The notes below the pieces were generated by a model. That model was not told where the DNA came from. It made no database searches and saw only the letters and a list, made by a program, of their open reading frames with translations. Made by a program: the position numbers and the translations under genes. 64,000 nucleotides of DNA, from the NCBI RefSeq assembly GCF_037023745.1, contig NZ_CP146101.1, positions 124,001 to 188,000 of the forward strand. Reading direction: 5' to 3'. This document shows positions 47,087-58,611 of the stretch, in pieces (the first letter of the stretch is position 1; every line of letters begins with the position of its first letter). The DNA is from Streptomyces sp. SCSIO 30461. GTDB lineage: Bacteria; Actinomycetota; Actinomycetes; Streptomycetales; Streptomycetaceae.

Positions 47087-47273
47087 GCGGGCAATCTAAT
47101 CTTCCACAGGTAAGGAATACAAGGCATATGTGATCCTTACCAATCTCTGAGATGGGGCTTCGGCTGTGCGCCGTTTGTTCTGATCTTGGCCCGCCTGGGA
47201 AAGTTTTTCTCCCCCACAGCCCGTGGATGGAAAACATGCAGGTCAAATGGTGTGTCATGAGGAGGGCCCCGAC

Positions 47274-47362
47274 TTGTCCACAGCTGTGTCCCCCGATCCG
47301 TGCACAGGTTCCGGGGGGTTCTCCACAGCATCTCGTCGCTCGTCCACATGGCCTGTGGATAA
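47274..47362. promoter_or_regulatory. DnaA-box cluster upstream of dnaB
   Basis: Within the 425-base MATE-dnaB gap there are a perfect TTGTCCACA (+, 47274-47282), a perfect TTATCCACA (-, 47354-47362), and one-mismatch boxes TTCTCCACA (47319-47327) and TCGTCCACA (47340-47348). The density rivals oriC. It places DnaA binding 150-240 bases upstream of the dnaB start. The rest of 47087-47511 shows no gene. Confidence 0.7.
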
Positions 47363-47511
47363 CCAGATTGGCTGACGGTGCCGGGAGCCCTAACGTAGAC
47401 CGGCGCTCGACGCGCCACAGGTGGAGTCGGGCCGCACGTTTTCTGTCAGTGCCGTGCCGTAGAAAGAGGGCACGGAGAGGTCCGTGGAGCGGACGGGAGG
47501 GGAGGCGGCCG

Positions 47512-48999
47512 GTGAGCATTCCCGAGCCCCTGGACGAGCCCTGGACCGACGTCGGTCCGGGTGCTCGACTGCCCGTCTCGCGCCAGAGGCGCGGAGAGGG
47601 CCGCGGGCGTGGCCGCGAGGAGCAGCACGAGCGCGGCCATGAGAGCGGCCCGTGGGACGACGGCGCACCCGGCGGGTTCGAGCGGGTTCCCCCGCAGGAC
47701 CTCGACGCCGAGCAGTCCGTTCTCGGCGGCATGCTGCTGTCCAAGGACGCCATCGCGGATGTCGTCGAGATCCTCAAGGGCCATGACTTCTACCGGCCCG
47801 CCCACGAGACCGTCTACCAGGCCATCCTCGACCTCTACGCCAAGGGCGAGCCCGCCGACCCCATCACGGTGGCCGCCGAGTTGACCAAGCGTGGGGAGAT
47901 CACCCGCGTCGGCGGTGCCTCGTACCTCCACACCCTGGTCCAGTCGGTGCCGACCGCGGCCAACGCCTCGTACTACGCTGAGATCGTCCATGAACGGGCG
48001 GTGCTGCGCCGCCTGGTAGAGGCGGGCACGCGCATCACCCAGATGGGATACGCGGCGGACGGCGACGTCGACGAGATCGTGAACTCCGCGCAGGCGGAGA
48101 TCTACGCCGTCACCGAGCAGCGCACCAGCGAGGACTATCTACCGCTCGCCGACATCATGGAGGGCGCGCTCGACGAGATCGAGGCGATCGGTTCTCGCAG
48201 CGGTGAGATGACGGGCGTCCCGACCGGCTTCACCGACTTCGACTCCCTCACCAACGGTCTGCACCCCGGCCAGATGATCGTGATCGCCGCACGTCCCGCC
48301 ATGGGTAAGTCCACCCTGGCGCTGGACTTCGCCCGTGCTGCGTCGATCAAGAACAATCTGCCCAGCGTGATCTTCTCCCTCGAAATGGGTCGCAACGAGA
48401 TCGCGATGCGCCTGCTGTCCGCCGAGGCACGGGTGGCCTTGCACCATATGCGATCGGGCACGATGACCGACGAGGACTGGACCCGGCTGGCCCGCCGTAT
48501 GCCGGACGTCTCCCAGGCCCCGCTCTACATCGACGACTCTCCGAACCTGTCGATGATGGAGATCCGCGCCAAGTGCCGCCGACTCAAGCAGCGCAACGAC
48601 CTGCGGCTGGTCGTCATCGACTACCTCCAGCTGATGCAGTCCGGTGGCTCCAAGCGGGCGGAGAGCCGCCAGCAGGAGGTCTCGGACATGTCCCGTAACC
48701 TCAAGCTGCTCGCCAAGGAGCTGGAGGTCCCGGTGATCGCACTCTCCCAGCTGAACCGTGGCCCCGAGCAGCGCACCGACAAGAAGCCGATGGTCTCCGA
48801 CCTGCGTGAGTCCGGCTCCATCGAGCAGGACGCCGACATGGTCATCCTGCTGCACCGCGAGGATGCCTACGAGAAGGAGTCCCCCCGCGCCGGCGAGGCG
48901 GACCTGATCGTCGCCAAGCACCGTAACGGCCCGACGGCCACCATCACGGTGGCGTTCCAGGGGCACTACTCGCGGTTCGTGGACATGGCGCAGACCTGA
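47512..48999 (+). CDS. dnaB: Replicative DNA helicase DnaB
   Basis: The hexameric 5'-3' fork helicase, 495 residues from GTG at 47512 (GGGAGGGGAGG upstream). A disordered Arg/Glu-rich N-terminal arm (about 1-55) precedes the primase-binding N-domain (PPQDLDAEQSVLGGMLLSKDAI). The RecA-like domain has Walker A ARPAMGKST, Walker B LVVIDYLQLM, SRQQEVSDMSRNLKLLAKEL and LRESGSIEQDADMV. No intein. The stop codon is 8 bases from the end of a Tn7-like element. Confidence 0.97.
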   Translation: MSIPEPLDEPWTDVGPGARLPVSRQRRGEGRGRGREEQHERGHESGPWDDGAPGGFERVPPQDLDAEQSVLGGMLLSKDAIADVVEILKGHDFYRPAHETVYQAILDLYAKGEPADPITVAAELTKRGEITRVGGASYLHTLVQSVPTAANASYYAEIVHERAVLRRLVEAGTRITQMGYAADGDVDEIVNSAQAEIYAVTEQRTSEDYLPLADIMEGALDEIEAIGSRSGEMTGVPTGFTDFDSLTNGLHPGQMIVIAARPAMGKSTLALDFARAASIKNNLPSVIFSLEMGRNEIAMRLLSAEARVALHHMRSGTMTDEDWTRLARRMPDVSQAPLYIDDSPNLSMMEIRAKCRRLKQRNDLRLVVIDYLQLMQSGGSKRAESRQQEVSDMSRNLKLLAKELEVPVIALSQLNRGPEQRTDKKPMVSDLRESGSIEQDADMVILLHREDAYEKESPRAGEADLIVAKHRNGPTATITVAFQGHYSRFVDMAQT

Positions 49000-49013
49000 C
49001 GACCACGTGTAGG

Positions 49014-49083
49014 TTCTCAAATCTCGTGTCATTTTCTCAGTCGCGATGTCATCCGAGTGGCCGATCTGACACGGGATTGAGAA
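49014..49083. repeat. Left-end subterminal repeats (transposase-site-like)
   Basis: Three copies: 49014-49031 and 49034-49051 inverted (TTCTCA-N6-GTGTCA and TTCTCA-N6-ATGTCA), and 49067-49083 direct (TGACAC-N5-TGAGAA). Consensus TGACAY-N5/6-TGAGAA. They resemble the repeated TnsB sites that mark Tn7-family ends. Confidence 0.8.
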
Positions 49084-49201
49084 TCGCTGCTCATCGCCGT
49101 CACTCGTTTGGGTGACCCTGTCTCAGGTCCGGCCTGCGAGCCTCCCGCGGATGCGAACGTAGCGTCCGTGAAGGGGACTGCCTGCGATCCGGGGGTGACT
49201 T

Positions 49202-49903
49202 ATGGCGGCAGGGCTGAGCCCGGGATCGATCACCGTGAGCCTGCGGGGCCCGAACGGCAGCTTGCTTGAGAACCGGGAGTGGACTGCTTCCTCGATCGAC
49301 GGGCTTGCGGCGGCGGACCCGTGGCGGACCTTCCGCTGGTACCGAGGCCAGCGGCACTACTCGGGCACCTACTGGTCCGCCACAATGCGCGACCACGTCA
49401 TCTACGAGTCGCGCCTCGAACTGGAGAGGCTCCTCTTCGCTGATTTCGATCCGTCCGTACGGCACATCGTGGCCCAGCCCTTTTTGCTCAAGGCCGAGGT
49501 GGACGGGGCCGTGCGCAAGCACATCCCGGACTATCTTCTGGTCACCGACGAGGGGCCTGTGATCGTGGATGTGAAGCCACTGCACCGGTTGTCCAAGCCG
49601 GAGGTGGCCTTCACTTTCGGCTGGACCCGTGAGGCGATGGAGGTTCGCGGGTGGAGTTACGAGGTCTGGAGCGAGCCACCTGCGGCTGAGCTGGAGAACG
49701 TCCGTTTCTTGTCGGGCTACCGCAGGGACTGGCTGTTCGATCGTGGGCTCGTCGACGAACTCCGTGGCGCTGAACTCGATGGAGTCTCTTTGCGACGCGC
49801 GGCGGTCAGCCTGCCTAATCACCCGGAGGAGCAAGTCCGTTCTGCGGCAATCCGTCGATCCGCCCAGGCGGTCCGGTCACGACTGGCTGCGGCGCCGATC
49901 TGA
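49202..49903 (+). CDS. tnsA: TnsA-like transposase endonuclease subunit
   Basis: 233 residues. Cuts the 5' strands at transposon ends in heteromeric (TnsA+TnsB) transposition. The restriction-endonuclease-like core is visible: E69/E73 in YESRLELERLL, D110 in HIPDYLLVTDEG, and D123-x-K125 in VIVDVKP. The C-terminal helical part (about 190-233) looks complete. The ATG at 49202 has GGGGGTGA upstream. It lies about 120 bases inside the left end, next to dnaB, reading away from it. The stop is followed directly by the deletion junction into tniQ. Confidence 0.82.
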   Translation: MAAGLSPGSITVSLRGPNGSLLENREWTASSIDGLAAADPWRTFRWYRGQRHYSGTYWSATMRDHVIYESRLELERLLFADFDPSVRHIVAQPFLLKAEVDGAVRKHIPDYLLVTDEGPVIVDVKPLHRLSKPEVAFTFGWTREAMEVRGWSYEVWSEPPAAELENVRFLSGYRRDWLFDRGLVDELRGAELDGVSLRRAAVSLPNHPEEQVRSAAIRRSAQAVRSRLAAAPI

Positions 49904-49947
49904 CCTGTGTTTCGACGCTTCGCCTGCCTCCTGGCCATCCGGTTCTC

Positions 49948-51699
49948 ATGGCGCAGGACCGGGTCACGGAGATCATCGACGGGCCGACAGCGGCCTTCGG
50001 CCCCTACCGGACTGTTCCCCAGCCGACACCGGCGGTGCTGGCCGACATCCGGGCCCTGGGCATCCGCGTCCTGAGCGACGTTCCCGCTGCTGTCCTGCGT
50101 GAACAGATGCCGGCCGACATCGCAGAAGCGCACCTCGCCACCGATCCGATCGTCCCGCGCACGGAACAGGCGGCGGACCGCCCGGGGTTCATGGCCCCGC
50201 CACGAGCCGCGGATGCCGCGGTCGCGGTCACCATGGCCCTGGGCATCCTGGAACAGCCAGGAATCCACCGGGCTGGTGAGGCCCTGCGGGGCCTGCTGGA
50301 AGCAGTACGCGAGGAACTCACGCAGATCTCGGCTACCAGCATCGACGACTGGGGCCAGGGCATCAGCCCGGTGCTGCAGTCCGTGCACCTGGCCGCCCTC
50401 GACCCCTCCCTCCGCCCCAGCGAGCACATCCGCTACCGCACGACCGAGACTCCCCGCCGGCCTGCAAGGACCACTCGGGACATCGAGCAGCGAGCCAGAA
50501 AGATCCCCACGATGTTCTGGCCGTACTGGACGGTCCGGCTCACACCGCCCGAAGGAATACATTCGCGGACCCTGGCCCCCGCCCTCGCCGCCCTGCTGCT
50601 GATCCCCGACAGCCGCACCTCCTTGGACCAGTCCGCTCGGCTGGTCGGCGATGCCATCGACGGCATCGAGATCTCACGCCTCCTCCAGGAACTCGACGAC
50701 CTTCCACAATGGCCGGACATCGTCACCGCCCTGGACCGGCTCGCCGACCGCCTTGACGCCGATGACATCCCCATCGACTACGGCCGGCGTCGGCTCCTGG
50801 ACTACACCGGACTGCTTCCCCATGACCGCTGGCTGGAGATCTGCCGCCGCACCGGAACACCGCCAGGGACCAGCCGGCGCGAACGCATCGCCCGCAGCCA
50901 ACTCTTCCAACGCCTCAGCGGCCTGCCTGCCGAGTCCGTCCCCGACCTGGGCGGGCTCGACAGCGCAGAGTTCCGGGCGACGTCCTTGAGGCTCACCGCC
51001 CTTCAGACCCCCGAACTCGCACACGCCCTCCAACAGGAAGCCCTCGAATTCCTCGCCGCGCAACACATCCACGAAGAGCCCGCGACCTGGCAGCCTCCCA
51101 CCGCCCTGCTGGCCGGACTCTCCCTTCCTGGCCCCGACCCGGCGCATATCGACCTCCCCCGCCTGCACCAACTCGTCCGAGAACGGCGGCACCCCGTTCA
51201 GCACGCCGCCCAAGTCCTGGGCACGAACGTCGAGGCCATCCGGCATGTCCTCGACGAACACCCAGCCCCCGCACCCCCGCTGACGAAGAACGCTGCCAGA
51301 GCCACCGGCCGCATCCGGCAGCAAGCCCGGCAAGCCATCCCGGCAGAGCGCTTCACTCAGCTCTACCTCGACGAACACCGGTCCCTCCAGCAGATCGCCA
51401 CCCTTACCGGCTTCTCCCGCAGACTGCTGACCGATCTCGCCAAGGAGTACGGCATCCCGCTCAGGGAGGGTCCCCAGGACTACAGACACCGTGGCACCAT
51501 CGAACGGGAATGGCTGTTTGAGCAGTACGTTGTCCACCGACGAACCCTGCCCGACCTTGCCCGCGAGACGGGTATGAGTACTGCGAACATGGCTCGGTGG
51601 GCCCACACCCACAACATCCCTCTCCGGCCCCGTGGTGGAGCAAGCCACAACGTTGCCCTCCGAGCGCGCGACCGCGCTCAGTCGCCCCCGCCGTCATGA
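49948..51699 (+). pseudogene. tniQ: TniQ/TnsD-like targeting protein, 5' part deleted
   Basis: 583 residues from the first ATG. It corresponds to the middle and C-terminal parts of a TniQ-family protein: VPQPTPAVLADIRALGIRVL, then two HTH-like repeats at the end (SLQQIATLTGFSRRLLTDLAKEYGIPLR and TLPDLARETGMSTANMARWAHTHNIPLR). The N-terminal zinc-finger half that contacts TnsC is absent. Homology-like coding continues upstream in frame (LRLPPGHPVL) to about 49910, right behind the tnsA stop. A deletion therefore removed tnsB, tnsC and the 5' part of tniQ. Family attribution is from memory. Confidence 0.68.
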
Positions 51700-51752
51700 G
51701 CAGATGACGACATGGATGCGCTGTCACTGGACGAAGAAGACAGCCCCACACC

Positions 51753-53003
51753 TCACCTTGCGCCGTGCCGTCGAACGGACGGGAACACCAGTACCACCCC
51801 GACCGCGGTCAGCTGCCACAACACACCGAGCCCGAGGAGCCGGTCTGCCCCCACGATGTTCGACACGGGCCCGGCCAGCGCCAGCCCGAGCGGCCCCAGG
51901 GCGAAGGCACCCAGGCTGTCGAACGCACTGACCCGTCCGCGGACCTCGGCGGGGATCTCGCGCTGGATGACGGTCGTCACGAGGGTGTTACACACCGCTG
52001 CCCCGGCCCCTGCGAGGAGTGCGGCCGCGGCCACCCAGCCCAGCGGCAACCGCGCCGCCAACGCTGCTGCCGGGAGTGCCCAGCCTGCGGATGCGGCCAC
52101 GGACCAGACGAGCGCCCGGCTGGGGTTCCTGCCGAGCAGTGCCAGGCCGCTGCCGATTGACCCGATGCCGTACAGGGCCAGCACCAGCCCCCAGGCACTG
52201 GCACCGCCGAGCCGCTGCTGAGCAAGAGTCGGACCCAGCACCAGGAACGGTGCCCAGAGAACGAAGTTGAAGAGGCTGATGTGGAGGGTCGTGACCCACA
52301 GCCATGTGCGGGAGGTGAACTCCTTCCAGCCGCGCCCCAGGTCGGTGAACAACCCATGGCGGGGCGTGGCCAACTGCGACAGGGGCAGCCCAGCCAGGGC
52401 CAGGGCGCTCACGCCGTAGCTGACCGCGTCGACAGCGAGCACGGTGCCAGCATCAGAAACAGCGATGAGCAGACCGGCCAGACCTGGACCTGCGACCGAG
52501 GTCACAGCCTGGACGATCTGCAGCAGCGAGTTGGCGTCCGCAAGGTCATCTGCCGGAACGAGACCGGGCACCAGAGCCGTCAGACCCGGGCTGAACCCTC
52601 CCTCACCGATTCCGAGGACCACCGCCAGCGCGACCACTTCCCAGACCCTCGCGCTATGGGTGAGCAGCAGTACGGCCAGCGTGCCCTGGGCGGTGAACCG
52701 GAGCAGATCCGCTGTCAGCATGACTGCACGGGCTCCGAGACGATCGGTGAACACGCCGCCGAGCAGCAGCACGACCAGCACAGCGAGGATCCGCGCCGCC
52801 ATCACCACGCCGACGGCGTCGACCCCGCCGCCAGGCATCTGCAGCACGGCGAAGGTCGTCCCGATCGTGTTCATCCCGGTGCCGAGTAACGACGTGCTCT
52901 GGCCGATGAGGAAGCGGCGGAACGAGGAGTGCCGCAGCGTGCGCAGGCGGTGAGTGGCTGTCTGGGGCTTGGATGCAGCGGGCGGGCGAGTGCGAAGCGT
53001 CAT
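51753..53003 (-). CDS. MFS efflux transporter (transposon cargo)
   Basis: 416 residues, about 12 hydrophobic segments, MFS drug-export type. The loop after helix 2 reads GGVFTDRLGARAVMLTADLLR, a good MFS motif A, and the second-half equivalent is REIPAEVRGRVSAFDSLG. Complete, with ATG at 53003 and GGAGG/GGAG upstream. It is the only intact cargo gene in the element, convergent with the tniQ remnant and divergent from the recombinase gene. Its upstream region has repeated ATTTACTGC motifs. Substrate unknown; a resistance role is inference. Confidence 0.85.
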   Translation of the reverse strand: MTLRTRPPAASKPQTATHRLRTLRHSSFRRFLIGQSTSLLGTGMNTIGTTFAVLQMPGGGVDAVGVVMAARILAVLVVLLLGGVFTDRLGARAVMLTADLLRFTAQGTLAVLLLTHSARVWEVVALAVVLGIGEGGFSPGLTALVPGLVPADDLADANSLLQIVQAVTSVAGPGLAGLLIAVSDAGTVLAVDAVSYGVSALALAGLPLSQLATPRHGLFTDLGRGWKEFTSRTWLWVTTLHISLFNFVLWAPFLVLGPTLAQQRLGGASAWGLVLALYGIGSIGSGLALLGRNPSRALVWSVAASAGWALPAAALAARLPLGWVAAAALLAGAGAAVCNTLVTTVIQREIPAEVRGRVSAFDSLGAFALGPLGLALAGPVSNIVGADRLLGLGVLWQLTAVGVVLVFPSVRRHGAR

Positions 53004-53100
53004 GGCTCCGCACTTTTCCTCCGTCAGCCTATTCCCTGCAAGCGTTTCCGAGAAAGAAATCTGATTCTTCCACGAGTAATTTCCATTCCGGGTAATTGGC

Positions 53101-53190
53101 GCAGTAAATGGCCTATATTTACTGCAACATGCCTGGTGGTAGGCTCAGCGGAAGAAGGATGGGGCAGGCTCCATGGAGTTCATTTACTGC
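53101..53190. promoter_or_regulatory. ATTTACTGC repeats in the MFS/recombinase divergent region
   Basis: GCAGTAAAT (53101-53109) and ATTTACTGC (53117-53125) form a 9-bp dyad with a 7-base spacer, and a third direct copy lies at 53182-53190. The surrounding 53004-53201 is markedly AT-richer than the rest of the window. It is a likely operator/promoter region for the MFS gene, with no cognate regulator gene in the element. Confidence 0.5.
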
Positions 53191-53201
53191 GGATGGCCAG
53201 C

Positions 53202-54095
53202 ATGAGTCAGCACCAAACCGACGGAGCGGGAACACCTCGCCTGGCGCCGGTGGAGTACAGCGCAGCCGTTGATCGCTATCTCGCCGCGGCCGATCTCGGC
53301 AGCGCCTCCCGCCGCGTTTACCGCATCTCGCTGGTCGGGTGGTCCTGGCCATTGGTCGACCGCCGGGCTCCGACCGGTCGCGAGCGCCGGGGGGCCCACC
53401 CGCCCGTCGTTCCTCTTGCCCTGCTCGACGACCCGAAGGCCCCAGAGCGGCTGCAACGGGCACTGGCCGACCGTGCCGCCGCTGCGGAGTCACGCACACT
53501 GGCCCGCGAACTGGCCTGCCTTCGAGCCGCTACGGCATGGTGGCTGGCAGAAGGCTGGATCACCGCAGACCCGGCCGCCGGACTGGCACCGCCGGCGCCG
53601 TGTCCTGGACCGGCACCGAACCCCTCCGACGCTTTCACGGCTGCGAGGGCGACTGCCGCCGACCCGGATCGGGCCCGCGCCGCCCTCGCCTTGCGGGCGC
53701 CACTCAGGGAGTTGACTCTGTGGCACCTCCTCCACGAGTCGAGAGCCCCCGTCGAACAGGTGCTCGCCCTCAACATCGATCACCTCGACCTGTCCAGCCG
53801 ACGCACCAGGGCGCGCGCGGCAGCAGCCCTGAGCTGGGGATGGGGCACGGCACGCCTGCTGCCCATGCTGCTGGCCGGGCGCACTGCGGGGCCGGTGTTC
53901 GTCACCGACCGAAGGGCCCCCGCCTCCATACCGGCAGCTGACCGCTGCCCGGTGACCGGCCGAGGGCGGCTTTCCTACCGCCGGGCCGCAGAGCTCTTCA
54001 CCGCCGCGACCAGACCACTCGATCCAGTCGGCCGCGGCTGGACCCTGCTTGTCCTGCGCGACCGGGCACCCCGGAGCAGGACGGTCCCCAGATGA
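53202..54095 (+). pseudogene. Tyrosine recombinase, C-terminus lost
   Basis: 297 residues. An N-terminal SAM-like core-binding domain (AVDRYLAAADLGSASRRVYRISL) and the start of the catalytic domain (LRELTLWHLLHESRAPVEQVLALNIDHLDLSSRR, first catalytic Arg region). It has family-typical WGTARLLPMLLAGRTAGPVFVTDRRAP and CPVTGRGRLSYRRAAELF. Where the catalytic HxLRH box should be it reads WTLLVLRDRAP and stops soon after; the H-x-x-R and the nucleophilic Tyr are missing. Probably inactive. Start uncertain (53193 or 53202, poor ribosome binding site). Confidence 0.72.
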
Positions 54096-54170
54096 CGCGC
54101 CGGGGCAGGTTGAGTCTCCGTGCTCGCTGGCTGGCCCGTCTGACGGACCTACGTGGGCGCCAGTAGGAAA

Positions 54171-54265
54171 TGACACGGATCTGAGACCGGCAGGGCCTGA
54201 CACGACGTGAGGCAGCGAGAGAACGCCCAGGTCACGGCGTCGTCGAATGACATCGAAAGTGAGAA
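54171..54265. repeat. Right-end subterminal repeats (transposase-site-like)
   Basis: Three copies, all in the same orientation: TGACAC-N5-TGAGAC (54171-54187), a weaker TGACAC-N4-TGAGGC (54198-54213) and TGACAT-N6-TGAGAA (54248-54265). The last overlaps the terminal inverted repeat. They match the left-end consensus TGACAY-N5/6-TGAGAA. Confidence 0.75.
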
Positions 54266-54387
54266 CCTACAACGTGGAGGCGCCTCGGGACCGGCCCCAT
54301 CTCGCCGCACTCTCAGCGCAGGGTCTGACAATTCAGACCGGGCAGCACATTCATGTGGAGGCTGTCATCACCTGGGATACTCGTCTC

Positions 54388-54843
54388 GTGGACACATCGA
54401 GGGCTTCCTGGGTCAATACGACGCACGATTGGTCCGGCCTCGTTGATGTGGATCACCTGTCGCACATCCGCCACAATCCCGACGAGTTCGCTCCGGGAGG
54501 GCCGTGGCACCTCGTCCTTGAGGTGCTTGGCTATGCCGCTGACGAAGCGGCAAGCAGGGGCGGGGGGCGATGCGTCGTAGTTCTCCATCCCGACGGTTCC
54601 CTGTCCGTGCGGGACGATGGACGGGGCACTGACACCCGGGTCGACGAGCACGGCCAGAGCGTGAAGAAGCCGGTCATGGCCACCAGGGATCTCCGGTTCT
54701 TCGACTTCCCCGAGACCGAGGTGCTTGGACGGCGATCTTTCGCGCCTGACCACGTCCTGGCCTCATCTGGAGGTTCAGCTCGAGGACCAGCGGCTGCGGC
54801 GTCACGCTCTACGGTCGTTCGCCGACTGAGCGTCCATCGGTGA
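54388..54843 (+). pseudogene. GyrB-like ATPase fragment, C-terminus replaced
   Basis: A GHKL/GyrB-type ATP-binding N-terminal segment (VDVDHLSHIRHNPDEFAPGGPWHLVLEVLGYAADEA, then VVLHPDGSLSVRDDGRGTDTR and KKPVMATRDLRFFD). Related stand-alone Streptomyces proteins, as I recall them, continue with a RRGMSVVAALS (G2-like) motif, which is absent. After about 54730 the frame loses similarity. A different frame (54755-54834) reads LEVQLEDQRLRRHALRSFAD like the tail of another gene. The start is uncertain. The longer frame from 54247 begins inside the transposon end. Confidence 0.6.
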
Positions 54844-55235
54844 GCCGGCGACCGGGCAGCAGTGACGCGGGCAGCAGCGCCAGCGCCAGCAGAGCCGCCG
54901 AGTTGCTGGAAGAACTCGGACTGTCAGCGAGCCATCTCATGGACGCCGTCCGCGAGTACGCCGACGGATGGGGGCTCGCCTTCGACCCGAAGGACATGAA
55001 CGCCTCCCCGCAGCAGCTCAACGGGGATCACTGGGAGGACTGGCTTGCCAGCGACTGCCCGGCATTGCTCATCCGAGGCAGCCGCAGCACGGTGCTCGGC
55101 GCCGAGCATGCGAAGGATATGGCGGCACGTCGCCCCCACACCAGGCTCGTCGAACTCCCCGCCGGGCACACCGTCCATGGGACCGTCCCAGCAGAGTTCG
55201 CCGCAGCCGTAAGGGAGTTCCTCAGCACGATGTGA
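54840..55235 (+). pseudogene. C-terminal fragment of an alpha/beta hydrolase
   Basis: 131 residues. DCPALLIRGSRSTVLGAEHAKDMAARRPHTRLVELPAGHTVHGTVPAEFAAAVREFL is the last third of an alpha/beta hydrolase: the acid-loop strand and the catalytic-His GH motif. The nucleophile elbow, oxyanion region and most of the core are missing, so it cannot be active. The N-terminal 25 residues are low-complexity and probably out of register. With the preceding GyrB-like fragment it marks a decay zone right of the transposon. Confidence 0.65.
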
Positions 55236-55378
55236 GTTGCCGGAAGGGGACATCGCGTCCAGCTACCGGCGGTCTGAATGGTCACGTCACTCGGGCGTTC
55301 TGCCGGTGCCGGTAACGTGGACGAGTGACCGGGCCGCCCAGTGGATCGGTGAACAGCACGTACCAGAACGAAGCCTGG

Positions 55379-55424
55379 GCGAGGAGACCGCGACCGCCAT
55401 ACCGGCGTCGGCCGGTCTCCTCGC
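55379..55424. terminator. Hairpin in the 55236-55586 gap
   Basis: GCGAGGAGACCG (55379-55390) pairs with CGGTCTCCTCGC (55413-55424); the 22-base loop can pair further (CGACCGCC/GGCGTCGG). It is a probable terminator for the leftward cell-wall protein gene or for the hydrolase fragment. I see no gene in 55236-55586. Confidence 0.5.
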
Positions 55425-55586
55425 TTGGATGTCCGGCTCAGCTTCCGCAGGCCGAGGCATGCGGCTTGCCCCTGGTTGGGGCTGCGGCATGAAGGGCCAT
55501 GGCTCTCCTGCCGGTCATGGCCCCAGTTCCGCGATGACGGTACCGGCGTCAGGACTCGCGTCCGTGGCCCCGCAAGCGGACAGGCA

Positions 55587-56873
55587 TCAGCTGTTGTCGG
55601 CCTTGCGGCGGCGAATGGCGAAGACCGAACCTGCGCCGAGTGCGACGGCAGCACCGCTCACGAGAGCGAGCCGGGGCAGGACGGAGGGCGAACCGGTCCT
55701 GGCGAGGGCGCTTCCGTTCGCGGTGGTCGTCTCCGGAGTGCCCGACGTGCCAACCGACTCGGTCGAGGTGCCGCCCTGCACGGACGGGCTTGGCTTGGGT
55801 GTCGGCCGGTCCTTGTCATCGACCGTGCCGGGCTTGGCGTCGTCGATCTCTCCCGGCTCGCTTCCGGCAGGCAGGACCTCGTAGTCATAGCGCTTCATCG
55901 GGCCGTGGATACACGGGTTGTATGCGCTGGAGGCATCGCCGGCGAACAGGGCGAAGCCCTTGGCCGACGGAGCCGCCTCATCGAGAGTGAGCCTCATCTT
56001 CACAGCGCTGCGGTCGCCCGGCTTCATGGCGTCGACGGTCGCGACATAGTTGTTTCTCCCGGCGTCGAGCTCCTGCCAGTCGGACCCGTTGGACCACTCC
56101 ACCTTGAGGAAGTCCATGTTCTTCACCGGATTCAGGACGACCACGGCCAGCGGGTCCACATCCAGCGTCCTGTCGGTGCCATTGGTCACCGTGAACGAGA
56201 AGTCGACCGTGGTTCCGGCGACGATCTCGGACGGCAGGCCGTCCGCGAGGACGGTCAGTCCCGAAACACGCACGCACTCCTTGGCGGCGGCGAGCGCCTT
56301 GCCCGCGGCTTCCTTGATCTTGAGGGCTTCCTCAGGAGCGTTCTGGACGAGGCCGTACTCCTGCGCCGCCTTGATCCTGGCGTCGTTCCATGCGTCCCAA
56401 GCCGCCTCCTTCTCGGCGTCGGCTTGCGCCTTGGCGGCGGAGGCCTTCTCTGCATTCGCCCTGGCAGTTGTGAGGGCCTCCTGCGCTTTGGCCTTCGCGG
56501 CATCGTCCTGGGCCGCTTCCAGCTCGGCCTCGGCGTCGATGACGGCCTTGTCCGCGACCGTCTTGTCAACCGCCGCGGCCTTGGCCACCGCATCCTTGGC
56601 CAGGGCGGTGGCCTTGAGCGGGTGCGTGTCCAGGGCCAGGGCGGCCATGGTCGCCTTCAGCTTCTCCAGCCCGGCCGCCTTGGCGGCGACCGCGTCCTCG
56701 TACGCCTTCTCCGCGTCGGCGGCGGCCTTCTCCAACTCGGCGTAGGTCTTCGGCTGGTTCACCGTCTGCGTCGCGGGCTCGGTGTCGGCGAATGCCGAAG
56801 TGGCGGAGAGCAGCATGACGGGGCTGGCCAAGGCAACGGCGGCAGCTGTCGCGAGGGCACGGCGAAGCTTCAC
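55587..56873 (-). CDS. Cell-wall-anchored coiled-coil protein with LAXTG sorting signal
   Basis: 428 residues from GTG at 56873 (AAAGGG upstream). A signal peptide (VKLRRALATAAAVALASPVMLLSATSAFA) is followed by a long Ala/Lys/Glu-rich helical region (about 35-200) predicted as coiled coil. A beta-rich domain (VSGLTVLADGLPSEIVAGTTVDFSFTVTNGTDRTLDV...) with two cysteines, a Pro/Thr linker, and the C-terminal LARTG motif, hydrophobic segment and RRRK end follow. LAXTG is the motif recognised by Streptomyces class E sortases (as in chaplins). Ligand unknown. Confidence 0.82.
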   Translation of the reverse strand: MKLRRALATAAAVALASPVMLLSATSAFADTEPATQTVNQPKTYAELEKAAADAEKAYEDAVAAKAAGLEKLKATMAALALDTHPLKATALAKDAVAKAAAVDKTVADKAVIDAEAELEAAQDDAAKAKAQEALTTARANAEKASAAKAQADAEKEAAWDAWNDARIKAAQEYGLVQNAPEEALKIKEAAGKALAAAKECVRVSGLTVLADGLPSEIVAGTTVDFSFTVTNGTDRTLDVDPLAVVVLNPVKNMDFLKVEWSNGSDWQELDAGRNNYVATVDAMKPGDRSAVKMRLTLDEAAPSAKGFALFAGDASSAYNPCIHGPMKRYDYEVLPAGSEPGEIDDAKPGTVDDKDRPTPKPSPSVQGGTSTESVGTSGTPETTTANGSALARTGSPSVLPRLALVSGAAVALGAGSVFAIRRRKADNS

Positions 56874-57201
56874 TTGATCCCTTTCGGGTGTGGTGGTCTG
56901 AGGACGGCCGGGGATTGACACGCTCATGTGGCAGCCGTAGGCGTGATCGTATGGCCGGTATCGGGGACGGGGGTATCGAGATCTCGATCCGGCCGCCTCA
57001 CGGTCGAGAGGAACCCATCGGGCAAAATGGAATGAATATGGATAGTTGCTCGTGTTGTCGCGAATTCTCTGAGATCTATCTCATCGCATGTGAAGGAGGG
57101 GCAGAAGATCTCACCGCTCTCCGTTGCTTCAATTCAGGAACCTGCGGGCCTGGACGGAAATGCCGTGTGGGGACAGTGAGTCCGTCTGGTAGAGCTTGGG
57201 C
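56874..57201. other. Divergent intergenic region with AT-richer core
   Basis: 328 bases between the cell-wall protein and the serine hydrolase genes, both transcribed outward. 57025-57110 is AT-rich for this chromosome and holds a short Cys-rich frame (57031-57205) that I do not regard as a gene. Promoters of both neighbours must lie here; none could be placed precisely. Confidence 0.4.
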
Positions 57202-58611
57202 GTGAACTCAGCGCACTCGCCGTACCCGTCGTCGGATGTCCCGCCCCTGCTCCCCGGCACCGTAAGAGCTCTGCTGCACCGTGTCGCCGTAGGGCAGGCA
57301 GAGGGGCGGGCGCCTTCCCTGGTCGGGGCAGTGGGAAGGGACGGCCGGTGTCTGTGGAGTGGGGCGCGGAGTTGCGTCGCCGATGAGGTGCCGGATGCCG
57401 ACACCCAGTACCGCGTCGGGTCCATCACCAAGACCTTCACGGCGGTTCTGGTGATGCGGCTCAGGGATGAGGGGCTGCTGGATCTGAGCGATCCGTTGGA
57501 GAAGTACCTGCCAGGCACCGGTGTCGGTGAGGTGACCGTCGCCCAACTCCTCGGACACGGAGCGGGGCTGGCCGCGGAGAGTCCGTCTCCGTGGTGGGAG
57601 CGTACGCCGGGTACGGTCCGGCCCGGGTTGCGAGATGTGCTCGGTGACCAGCCGTTGGCGCACCCCGTGGGGCGCCGCCATCACTACTCCAACCCCGGAT
57701 ACACGCTGCTCGGTGCACTGGTCGAGGCGGTGCGTGGGGAGTCCTGGGAAGCCGTGCTGCGTCAGGAGATCCTCGAACCACTCGGGATGGACCGGACGAG
57801 CGCCCAGCCGCGGTCACCGCATGCGGGGGGCTGGGCGGTGCATCCGTGGGCCGATGTGATGATGCCGGAACCCGTCCAGGACCTCGGGTTGATGGCCCCT
57901 GCCGGGCAGTTGTGGTCCACCGCGTCCGACCTCTGCCGCTTCGGGGGCTTCCTCGCTGACGGCGATGAGCGGGTGCTGAATGCGGAGTCCGTACGGGAGA
58001 TGCGTACGCCTTCCGTGCCGCCCGAGACGGGGGACTGGGAGAGCGGCTACGGTCTGGGACTTCAACTGGTACGCAGGGCCGGACGCACACTGATCGGCCA
58101 TTCCGGCTCGCTGCCCGGGTTTGTCGCCGGCCTCTGGGTGAGTGTGGAGGAGGGGGTCACCGGGGTCGCACTCGCCAACGCCACATCGGGTCCGTTGACC
58201 GGCACTGTGGCAGGCGACCTCGTCGGCATCGTGGCCGATGCCGAGCCGAGGTTCCCCGAACCTTGGCGTCCTATGCCGGAGGTGGACCCGTCTGTTCTGG
58301 AACTCGCCGGGCCCTGGTACTGGGGCACCCATGCGTTTGGGCTGAAGGTGCTGGCCGACCGTGGTCTGGAGTTGTATCCACTCAAGGGGGTCGGACGTGG
58401 TGCCCGCTTCCGCGCCGGTGTGAGCGAGGTCGACTGGATCGGGCTCGACGGGTACTACGCCGGGGAGACGTTGACCGTGGTGCGGCGGAGCGACGGCACG
58501 GTGGACCATCTCGACCTGGGGTCATTCGTCTTCACCCGTGAGCCCTATGATCCGGCGGCGGAGGTCCCGGGGGGAGTGGACCCGGAAGGTTGGCGCGGGC
58601 TTCCGCGGTGA
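57202..58611 (+). CDS. Serine hydrolase of the class C beta-lactamase family
   Basis: 469 residues from GTG at 57202. It has the penicillin-recognising fold: SITK (S74, K77) in YRVGSITKTFTAVLV, the second-motif YSN in HHYSNPGYTLLGALVEAV, and HSG in LIGHSGSLPGFVAGLWV. A C-terminal domain (about 350-469) may be a lipocalin-like add-on. There is no signal peptide, so it is cytoplasmic or non-classically exported. More likely a D-aminopeptidase/esterase-like enzyme than a true beta-lactamase. Confidence 0.87.
   Translation: MNSAHSPYPSSDVPPLLPGTVRALLHRVAVGQAEGRAPSLVGAVGRDGRCLWSGARSCVADEVPDADTQYRVGSITKTFTAVLVMRLRDEGLLDLSDPLEKYLPGTGVGEVTVAQLLGHGAGLAAESPSPWWERTPGTVRPGLRDVLGDQPLAHPVGRRHHYSNPGYTLLGALVEAVRGESWEAVLRQEILEPLGMDRTSAQPRSPHAGGWAVHPWADVMMPEPVQDLGLMAPAGQLWSTASDLCRFGGFLADGDERVLNAESVREMRTPSVPPETGDWESGYGLGLQLVRRAGRTLIGHSGSLPGFVAGLWVSVEEGVTGVALANATSGPLTGTVAGDLVGIVADAEPRFPEPWRPMPEVDPSVLELAGPWYWGTHAFGLKVLADRGLELYPLKGVGRGARFRAGVSEVDWIGLDGYYAGETLTVVRRSDGTVDHLDLGSFVFTREPYDPAAEVPGGVDPEGWRGLPR

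Follow-up and report, generated by a model that had tools for sequence, protein, structure and literature searches.

An Internally Deleted Tn7-like Element Downstream of dnaB in Streptomyces sp. SCSIO 30461 and a Probable Attachment Site for Its Actinobacterial Relatives

The DNA analyzed here (the window) comprises 64,000 nucleotides of Streptomyces sp. SCSIO 30461, positions 124,001 to 188,000 of contig NZ_CP146101.1, and coordinates refer to the window. Directly downstream of dnaB it holds an element, at 49008-54271, whose ends and gene remnants resemble those of a Tn7-like transposon. A preliminary description, made from the letters of the window, had placed one end of this element 8 bp past the dnaB stop codon, which can be read directly in the sequence, and had assigned it perfect 12-bp inverted ends, which are exact at 49008-49019 and 54260-54271. 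The dnaB gene and the two element ends are composed as follows (L numbers designate individual loci).

47152..48999, plus strand: dnaB open reading frame (ORF), Pfam DnaB_C at 6e-108; the real start is probably internal to the listed ORF
48976..49007, plus strand: 32-bp stretch that opens with the conserved TTYnnnRAYMTG coding block, takes in the stop codon and then the 8-bp spacer CGACCACG, and ends at the insertion point
49008-54271: Tn7-like element, tnsA end toward dnaB
49008..49019, plus strand: dnaB-proximal terminal inverted repeat TGTAGGTTCTCA, exact, 12 bp
49014..49033, plus strand: TnsB-type repeat 1, site-model rank 2 in the window
49034..49053, plus strand: TnsB-type repeat 2, abutting repeat 1, site-model rank 3 in the window
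49064..49083 (about), minus strand: TnsB-type repeat 3, inverted, assigned by sequence; site-model rank 11 with the register shifted by one
54165..54271, minus strand: distal end block, 107 bp, 75-79% identical to L069, L073, L082, L085, L088, L093, L097, and L102
54246..54265, minus strand: terminal TnsB-type repeat of the distal end, site-model rank 1 in the window
54260..54271, minus strand: distal terminal inverted repeat TGAGAACCTACA, exact reverse complement of TGTAGGTTCTCA

Both ends of nine other elements served to train the TnsB site model, which ranks all 20-mers of the 64-kb window on both strands. Its first three ranks, 54246(-), 49014(+), and 49034(+), are all end repeats of the element. 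TGTAGGTTCTCA and its reverse complement were found in two copies in total in the 8.05-Mb genome, and the reversed control gave 0. TGT...ACA termini with arrays of ~20-bp transposase sites are present in the window element, the right array being the weaker. Three subterminal repeats had been claimed for each end; this count holds on the left, where two repeats abut and one is inverted, but was generous on the right, where one strong repeat is accompanied by two weaker ones (~54168-54187 and 54195-54213) that are spaced differently and fall outside the top 20 of the site model. The distal end block is also 79-80% identical to the plasmid elements L004 and L103, and because it is common to these two and to eight dnaB-site elements, the right boundary is fixed independently. 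The genes between the two ends are given below.

49202..49903, plus strand: tnsA (NCBIfam TnsA_like_Actin NF033179, 221.6 bits vs a cutoff of 110)
49948..51699, plus strand: tniQ remnant, 583 aa, 85% identical to residues 213-795 of an 884-aa TniQ
51753..53003, minus strand: major facilitator superfamily (MFS) transporter, cargo (PF07690, 4e-27)
53202..54095, plus strand: tyrosine-recombinase-like ORF, cargo, probably degenerate (weak XerC match; no Pfam match)

The TnsA-like gene, the TniQ-like remnant behind it, and the MFS gene of the preliminary description were all borne out by these matches. The recombinase fragment it had proposed is present as a recombinase-like ORF with a weak XerC match. 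In an alignment with its relatives, the window TnsA was found to keep invariant residues such as E73, D110, D123, and K125, which we take to be catalytic, and to have lost the conserved C-terminal HLLWT...VLR segment, in whose place stand ~20 other residues. The tniQ remnant lacks the TniQ domain (residues 9-151) and the C-terminal LysR-type helix-turn-helix (HTH, residues 810-868). The full set of TnsA, TnsB (DDE), TnsC (AAA+), and TniQ is not found in the window copy, which retains a truncated tnsA and a tniQ remnant only; since some relatives at the same site are complete, the window copy is regarded as a deletion derivative of a Tn7-like member. The MFS-recombinase cargo (51759-54098) is 86.6% identical in three Streptomyces megaplasmids (NBC_00046, NBC_00012, and NBC_01590).

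The internal deletion proposed in the preliminary description was mapped against a full-length element at dnaB, L073, in which tnsB is frameshifted; its host genome has the second-best dnaB match, after that of the window itself. Window positions 49008-49847 are 87.6% identical to the first 828 bp of L073, and positions 49841-51649 are 86.0% identical to 4667-6481 of L073. The 3.8 kb missing from the window holds the end of tnsA, tnsB, tnsC, and the start of tniQ.

49841..49847: internal deletion junction, 7-bp microhomology TCTGCGG, where L073 offsets 828 and 4667 are joined

No close TnsB or TnsC was found in the genome of the window (best identities of 30% and 28%, respectively), and the element would therefore at best be mobilizable in trans. 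The earlier suggestion that it depends on helpers supplied in trans is consistent with these identities, with the loss of the TnsA C-terminus as a caveat. The distant TnsB/TnsC-type gene pair with these identities, at 2508426-2510869 of the chromosome, probably belongs to another transposon family. Taking the ends, the gene remnants, and the relatives described below together, we consider it very probable that the window element is a non-autonomous, internally deleted member of an actinobacterial Tn7-like family that homes to the 3' end of dnaB.

The recurrence of the dnaB site was not noticed in the preliminary description; Tn7-like machinery itself was already known. A search of 295 Streptomyces genomes for the dnaB 3' end with TGTRGG 3-25 bp behind it gave matches in 39, including that of the window; the reversed pattern gave 0 of 295. 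One locus, at a contig edge, was excluded, and 38 loci (37 relatives and the window) were examined. A TnsB-type site stands in register at 30 of the 38, vs 18 of 369 other TGTRGG sites; some of these 18 are probably real ends, and some of the loci used to train the site model come from the same genomes. The gaps between stop codon and element in these 30 loci are 7-11 bp, and exactly 10 bp in 18. All four of tnsA, tnsB, tnsC, and tniQ are present in 9 of the 38 loci, some of them frameshifted or ended by the contig; among the remainder are incomplete elements and loci without any tns gene, and short elements with exact target duplications have 615 bp (L066) and 1894 bp (L093) between their ends. 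The TniQ, TniB/AAA, and TnsA domains of the relatives were confirmed, and the TnsB profile matches solved Tn7-type TnsBs. The Tn7-type identity given earlier is thus upheld by ends shared with relatives that carry tnsA, tnsB, tnsC, and tniQ at the same place, which is also what the suggested search for full-length relatives returned.

The association with dnaB was also recovered by a scan that made no use of dnaB. TnsB alignment alone was applied to named actinobacterial genomes, and the best 80 of 155 relatives were examined; a dnaB stop codon was found 5-13 bp before the element end in 43 of the 80. When at least 900 bp before tnsA/tnsB was required on both sides, 40 of 66 elements were at dnaB. 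The 43 loci share the register of the window stretch 48976..49007 from coding block to insertion point, and their genera include Streptomyces, Streptantibioticus, Actinacidiphila, Pseudonocardia, Amycolatopsis, Nocardia, Mycobacterium and kin, Tsukamurella, Nonomuraea, and Actinospica. The start of tnsA lies 137-444 bp inside the dnaB-proximal end in 41 of the 43, so that the orientation is fixed; the two exceptions, L155 and L169 (3343 and 897 bp), suggest nested elements.

The position of insertion appears to be set from within dnaB. The dnaB tail denotes the coding stretch that opens with the TTYnnnRAYMTG block and runs to the stop codon. Tails of 21, 24, and 27 nt are accompanied by mean gaps between stop codon and element of 11.25, 9.19, and 6.33 bp, respectively (n = 8, 32, and 3), and the gap falls with tail length with a slope of -0.77 (p = 3e-7, uncorrected for kinship). 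The distance of the element from the coding block is 33.0 ± 1.26 bp (standard deviation), vs 9.4 ± 1.68 bp from the stop codon. Because the gap compensates for tail length, the comparison suggests that the distance is measured from inside dnaB and not from the stop codon. In the 72 nt that surround the block, conservation is found at codon position 1 (1.49 bits) and codon position 2 (1.58 bits) and is lower at position 3 (0.90 bits). We propose the 3' coding end of the window dnaB as the recognition site.

Exact 5-bp duplications with matching distal ends were found in 9 of the 38 genus-scan loci and in 10 of the 43 dnaB-blind loci; three elements are common to both sets, giving 16 different elements. 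When duplications were swapped between loci, the mean was 0.15 loci over 20 shuffles. For eight insertions, the flanks were joined and aligned to nine genomes that have no element end at this place, and those of L066, L069, L071, and L094 resemble empty sites on the right side too. With the 615-bp element of L066 (duplication CGCGC) removed, 20 of the first 30 nucleotides match L029 in register, and 95 of 120 match with a 1-nt offset. A serine-hydrolase homologue starts 79-96 bp past the distal end in these four loci. Among 12 other dnaB loci with a hydrolase match, it starts ~72-128 bp past the dnaB stop codon in five and ~320-1020 bp past it in six; in the twelfth, L027, the dnaB stop codon was not located.

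The empty-site comparison proposed in the preliminary description thus succeeded for a related insertion but not for the window copy, because the right flank of the latter does not stand beside dnaB in any relative searched. This flank was matched in 7 of 41 genomes, its own included, and in the others it lies elsewhere than at dnaB. Positions 54282-54358 match the interiors of the elements in L082 (96%) and L102 (88%), and positions 54358-54845 match L091 in two pieces. Older insertions were thus probably present here. The 3 kb (54272-57246) that separate the element from a conserved gene for a beta-lactamase-family serine hydrolase hold scraps matching the interiors of other elements and a 446-aa ORF with no Pfam match. 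At the junctions themselves the window reads CCACG|TGT on the left and ACA|ACGTG on the right. A duplication that was originally ACGTG would be compatible with both flanks if the left junction, ACGTG-TGTAGG, had lost one TG; the original gap would then have been 10 bp, the most frequent value, and the unoccupied site would have been GACCACGTGGAGG.

54272..54276: ACGTG, proposed surviving target duplication; the left copy would be the ACG before TGTAGG

More than one element may occupy the site. In Nonomuraea antri (L177), tandem copies with identical TniQs stand at dnaB, the first of 6651 bp with the duplication TCTTT, which indicates either that there is no immunity to a second insertion or an effect of the assembly. 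In L120, a 232-bp two-ended element lies between dnaB and a full-size element. The TnsB of L109 (Streptomyces sp. MnatMP-M17) is 100% identical to that of L097. In L165, an apparent leftover distal end TGAGAACCTACA directly before the element supplies, with its TGA, the stop codon of dnaB, as if the dnaB tail had been replaced by an earlier element.

The full-length TniQs of the family are mostly ~720-890 aa. A quick tree of 70 rows was built from TniQs of at least 650 aa that are not truncated by a contig end, together with the 583-aa remnant of the window, the others being dropped. The dnaB label requires 15 changes on this tree vs 23.6 in shuffles (0 of 500 as low), and since the tree clusters by target, TniQ lineage and target are associated, not one-to-one. 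The C-terminal LysR-type HTH was found in 30 of 35 dnaB-site TniQs (counting the frameshifted L157 and leaving aside the truncated window copy), in 0 of 4 of a second target class (T2; L124 has a weak match elsewhere), in 10 of 21 others including L004, and in 6 of 9 whose site is unassigned. The dnaB-site TniQs without it are those of L121, both L177 copies, L180, and the first TniQ of L151. This domain is a candidate for the reader of dnaB. The T2 elements (L122, L124, L125, and L127) have a common upstream motif and their TniQs form one group (support 100), three of the four being 724-740 aa. A further target is rsmB, encoding a 16S rRNA methyltransferase, where L161, L170, and L171 stand 12-13 bp past the stop codon.

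A mechanism that would account for these observations can be outlined. In intact members, a TnsD-like TniQ of ~880 aa would bind the conserved coding end of dnaB and, once bound, recruit the TnsC ATPase, which would direct TnsA and TnsB to insert the element with its tnsA end facing dnaB. Measured from the first base of the TTYnnnRAYMTG block, insertion would take place at ~33 bp, a point 5-13 bp past the stop codon, with a 5-bp duplication and with dnaB left intact. Fixed position and orientation beside a conserved gene were found at the dnaB-site loci, and TniQ is presumed to have a role in both. More broadly, we think it likely that a large actinobacterial branch of Tn7-like elements uses the 3' end of dnaB as its main attachment site on the chromosome, and that the TniQs of this branch are modular, having been redirected to the ends of different housekeeping genes (dnaB, rsmB, and others).

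Several observations weigh against homing to dnaB or against its generality. Among the assessable elements of the dnaB-blind scan, 26 of 66 are not at dnaB, and of 11 others with short flanks and no dnaB, L170 is at rsmB and the remaining ones are unplaced. The TnsB-type site is missing from 8 of the 38 dnaB-adjacent TGTRGG matches. Exact duplications are seen in only 10 of the 43 dnaB-blind loci, and in 14 of the 38 genus-scan loci, counting the window, the distal end agrees at 10-12 of 12 bases but is not accompanied by an exact 5-bp duplication; apparent 4- or 6-bp duplications among these are CATC in L068, GGGC in L100, and TCGGTT in L075, others being probably due to chance. The joined flanks of L073, L074, L099, and L102, half of the eight, are unlike empty sites on the right, and the right flank of the window was not found beside dnaB in the relatives searched. 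With 15 changes and several long branches, the dnaB label does not describe one clean clade. A strict class-wide pattern was found in only 3 of 236 genomes, and a single one of these lies outside the genus; as this pattern recovers 20 of the 43 known dnaB-site loci, occupancy across the class appears to be modest. Finally, the interpretation is drawn from sequence comparison.

The alternatives differ in how much of this they could explain. The missing duplication at the window flanks, CCACG and ACGTG, would be accounted for if the window copy were a hybrid whose two ends came from different dnaB-site elements and were joined by recombination or deletion. The tandem or nested elements of L109/L097, L177, and L120, the likeness of the right flank to the interior of other elements, and the other elements at the site that also lack an exact duplication are all compatible with such an event. 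Both 12-bp ends are nevertheless identical, and the loss of one TG at the left would restore both a duplication and the modal gap. A hybrid origin therefore seems unlikely to us, yet it is the alternative that we take most seriously.

A permissive hotspot, in which the gap after dnaB is simply a harmless landing place that the transposon does not recognize, could be entertained on the grounds that other family elements are located elsewhere and that the site holds the apparent debris of several insertions. Such a hotspot would hardly be expected to produce a single register of 5-13 bp, a single orientation in 41 of 43 loci, compensation for tail length, and clustering of targets on the TniQ tree, and we regard it as improbable. 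Even less can be said for the view that a tyrosine recombinase, such as that of the cargo, integrated the whole as an island with the Tn7 genes as passengers. The recombinase-like ORF does lie inside the element, and together with the MFS gene it also occurs in three megaplasmids, but none of the 37 other dnaB-site loci has nucleotide homology to this ORF (E of 1e-8), and ends with TnsB repeats and 5-bp duplications are hallmarks of transposition. We consider such an island extremely improbable. Homing to dnaB by a Tn7-like element remains the preferred explanation.

The likeness to Tn7 extends beyond the proteins. The available portions of PMC2918618 and PMC11406308 describe TnsA/TnsB/TnsC/TniQ machinery, TGT...ACA ends with repeated TnsB sites, a 5-bp duplication, and insertion in one orientation beyond an essential gene whose 3' coding end sets the distance, all of which recur in the present family, the exact duplication in 16 elements other than the window copy. 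The TnsD protein of Tn7 reads the last 36 bp of glmS (PMC2918618, in part), and the ruler and codon conservation at dnaB resemble this reading. In contrast to Tn7, the target is dnaB rather than glmS, the gap from the stop codon is ~10 bp rather than ~20 bp, the dnaB-site TniQ is ~880 aa and mostly ends in the LysR-type HTH, the hosts are actinobacteria, and the window copy is without tnsB and tnsC. According to the part of PMC11406308 available, the Tn7-like end with overlapping sites appears nearest the attachment site, to which the abutting dnaB-proximal repeats are a loose fit. The attachment genes given there are glmS, yhiN, comM, parE, and tRNA genes (Table 1) and guaC, yciA, ffs, and rsmJ (text), and dnaB was not named as a Tn7-like attachment site among the matches listed in open-license full texts (including the available parts of PMC10991518).

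Benler et al. (2021) described an Actinobacteria-dominated Tn7-like clade in which, according to the accessible sections of PMC8649781, no element has been experimentally characterized and for which those sections name no attachment gene. The present family resembles this clade in host group and core genes. Tn7706 of Rhodococcus erythropolis is likewise an actinobacterial Tn7-like element, with tnsA, tnsB, tniQ, and tniB, and is reported on plasmids and islands; no dnaB site is named for it in the accessible part of PMC12915292. The element on plasmid NBC_01217 (L003) shares tnsA-tnsB-tnsC-tniQ, a TGTAGGGTCTCA end, and a 5-bp duplication (GCTCG), but is on a plasmid, does not stand by dnaB in the annotated stretch, and has a 791-aa TniQ without a C-terminal HTH. 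CRISPR-associated transposons are marked by Cas effector genes and a short TniQ; the full-length TniQs of the present family are mostly larger than the small TniQs that PMC10293859 connects with additional target selectors.

If correct, homing to dnaB gives actinobacterial Tn7-like transposons a concrete, testable target, and places the glmS strategy, in which the coding end of an essential gene is read and the element is inserted just past it, at the gene for the replicative helicase. Streptomyces and its relatives would, in addition, have a natural site for single-copy integration. The several TniQ target classes could be compared with one another and would offer natural material for working out how TniQ recognizes DNA.

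Further details of the other targets were noted. The T2 element ends lie at 2799 in L122, 8095 in L124, 8095 in L125, and 8097 in L127, and the T2 motif is CTGTCTGCC...GCGAACT. Rfam gave no match in eight loci with other targets, T2 included, and one TniQ queried by sequence had no match among solved structures. Single elements stand beside three further genes that are only possible targets: L126 lies 27 bp past an OmpA-family gene, L156 17 bp past a cutinase-domain gene, and L158 6 bp past a GH15 gene. L151 carries two tniQ genes, perhaps two target selectors; the product of one (799 aa) lacks the C-terminal HTH, and that of the other (888 aa) has it. Inteins occur in actinobacterial dnaB, and in L132, L142, L151, L159, and L165, the upstream DnaB matches fall in separated pieces, as if interrupted by an intein.

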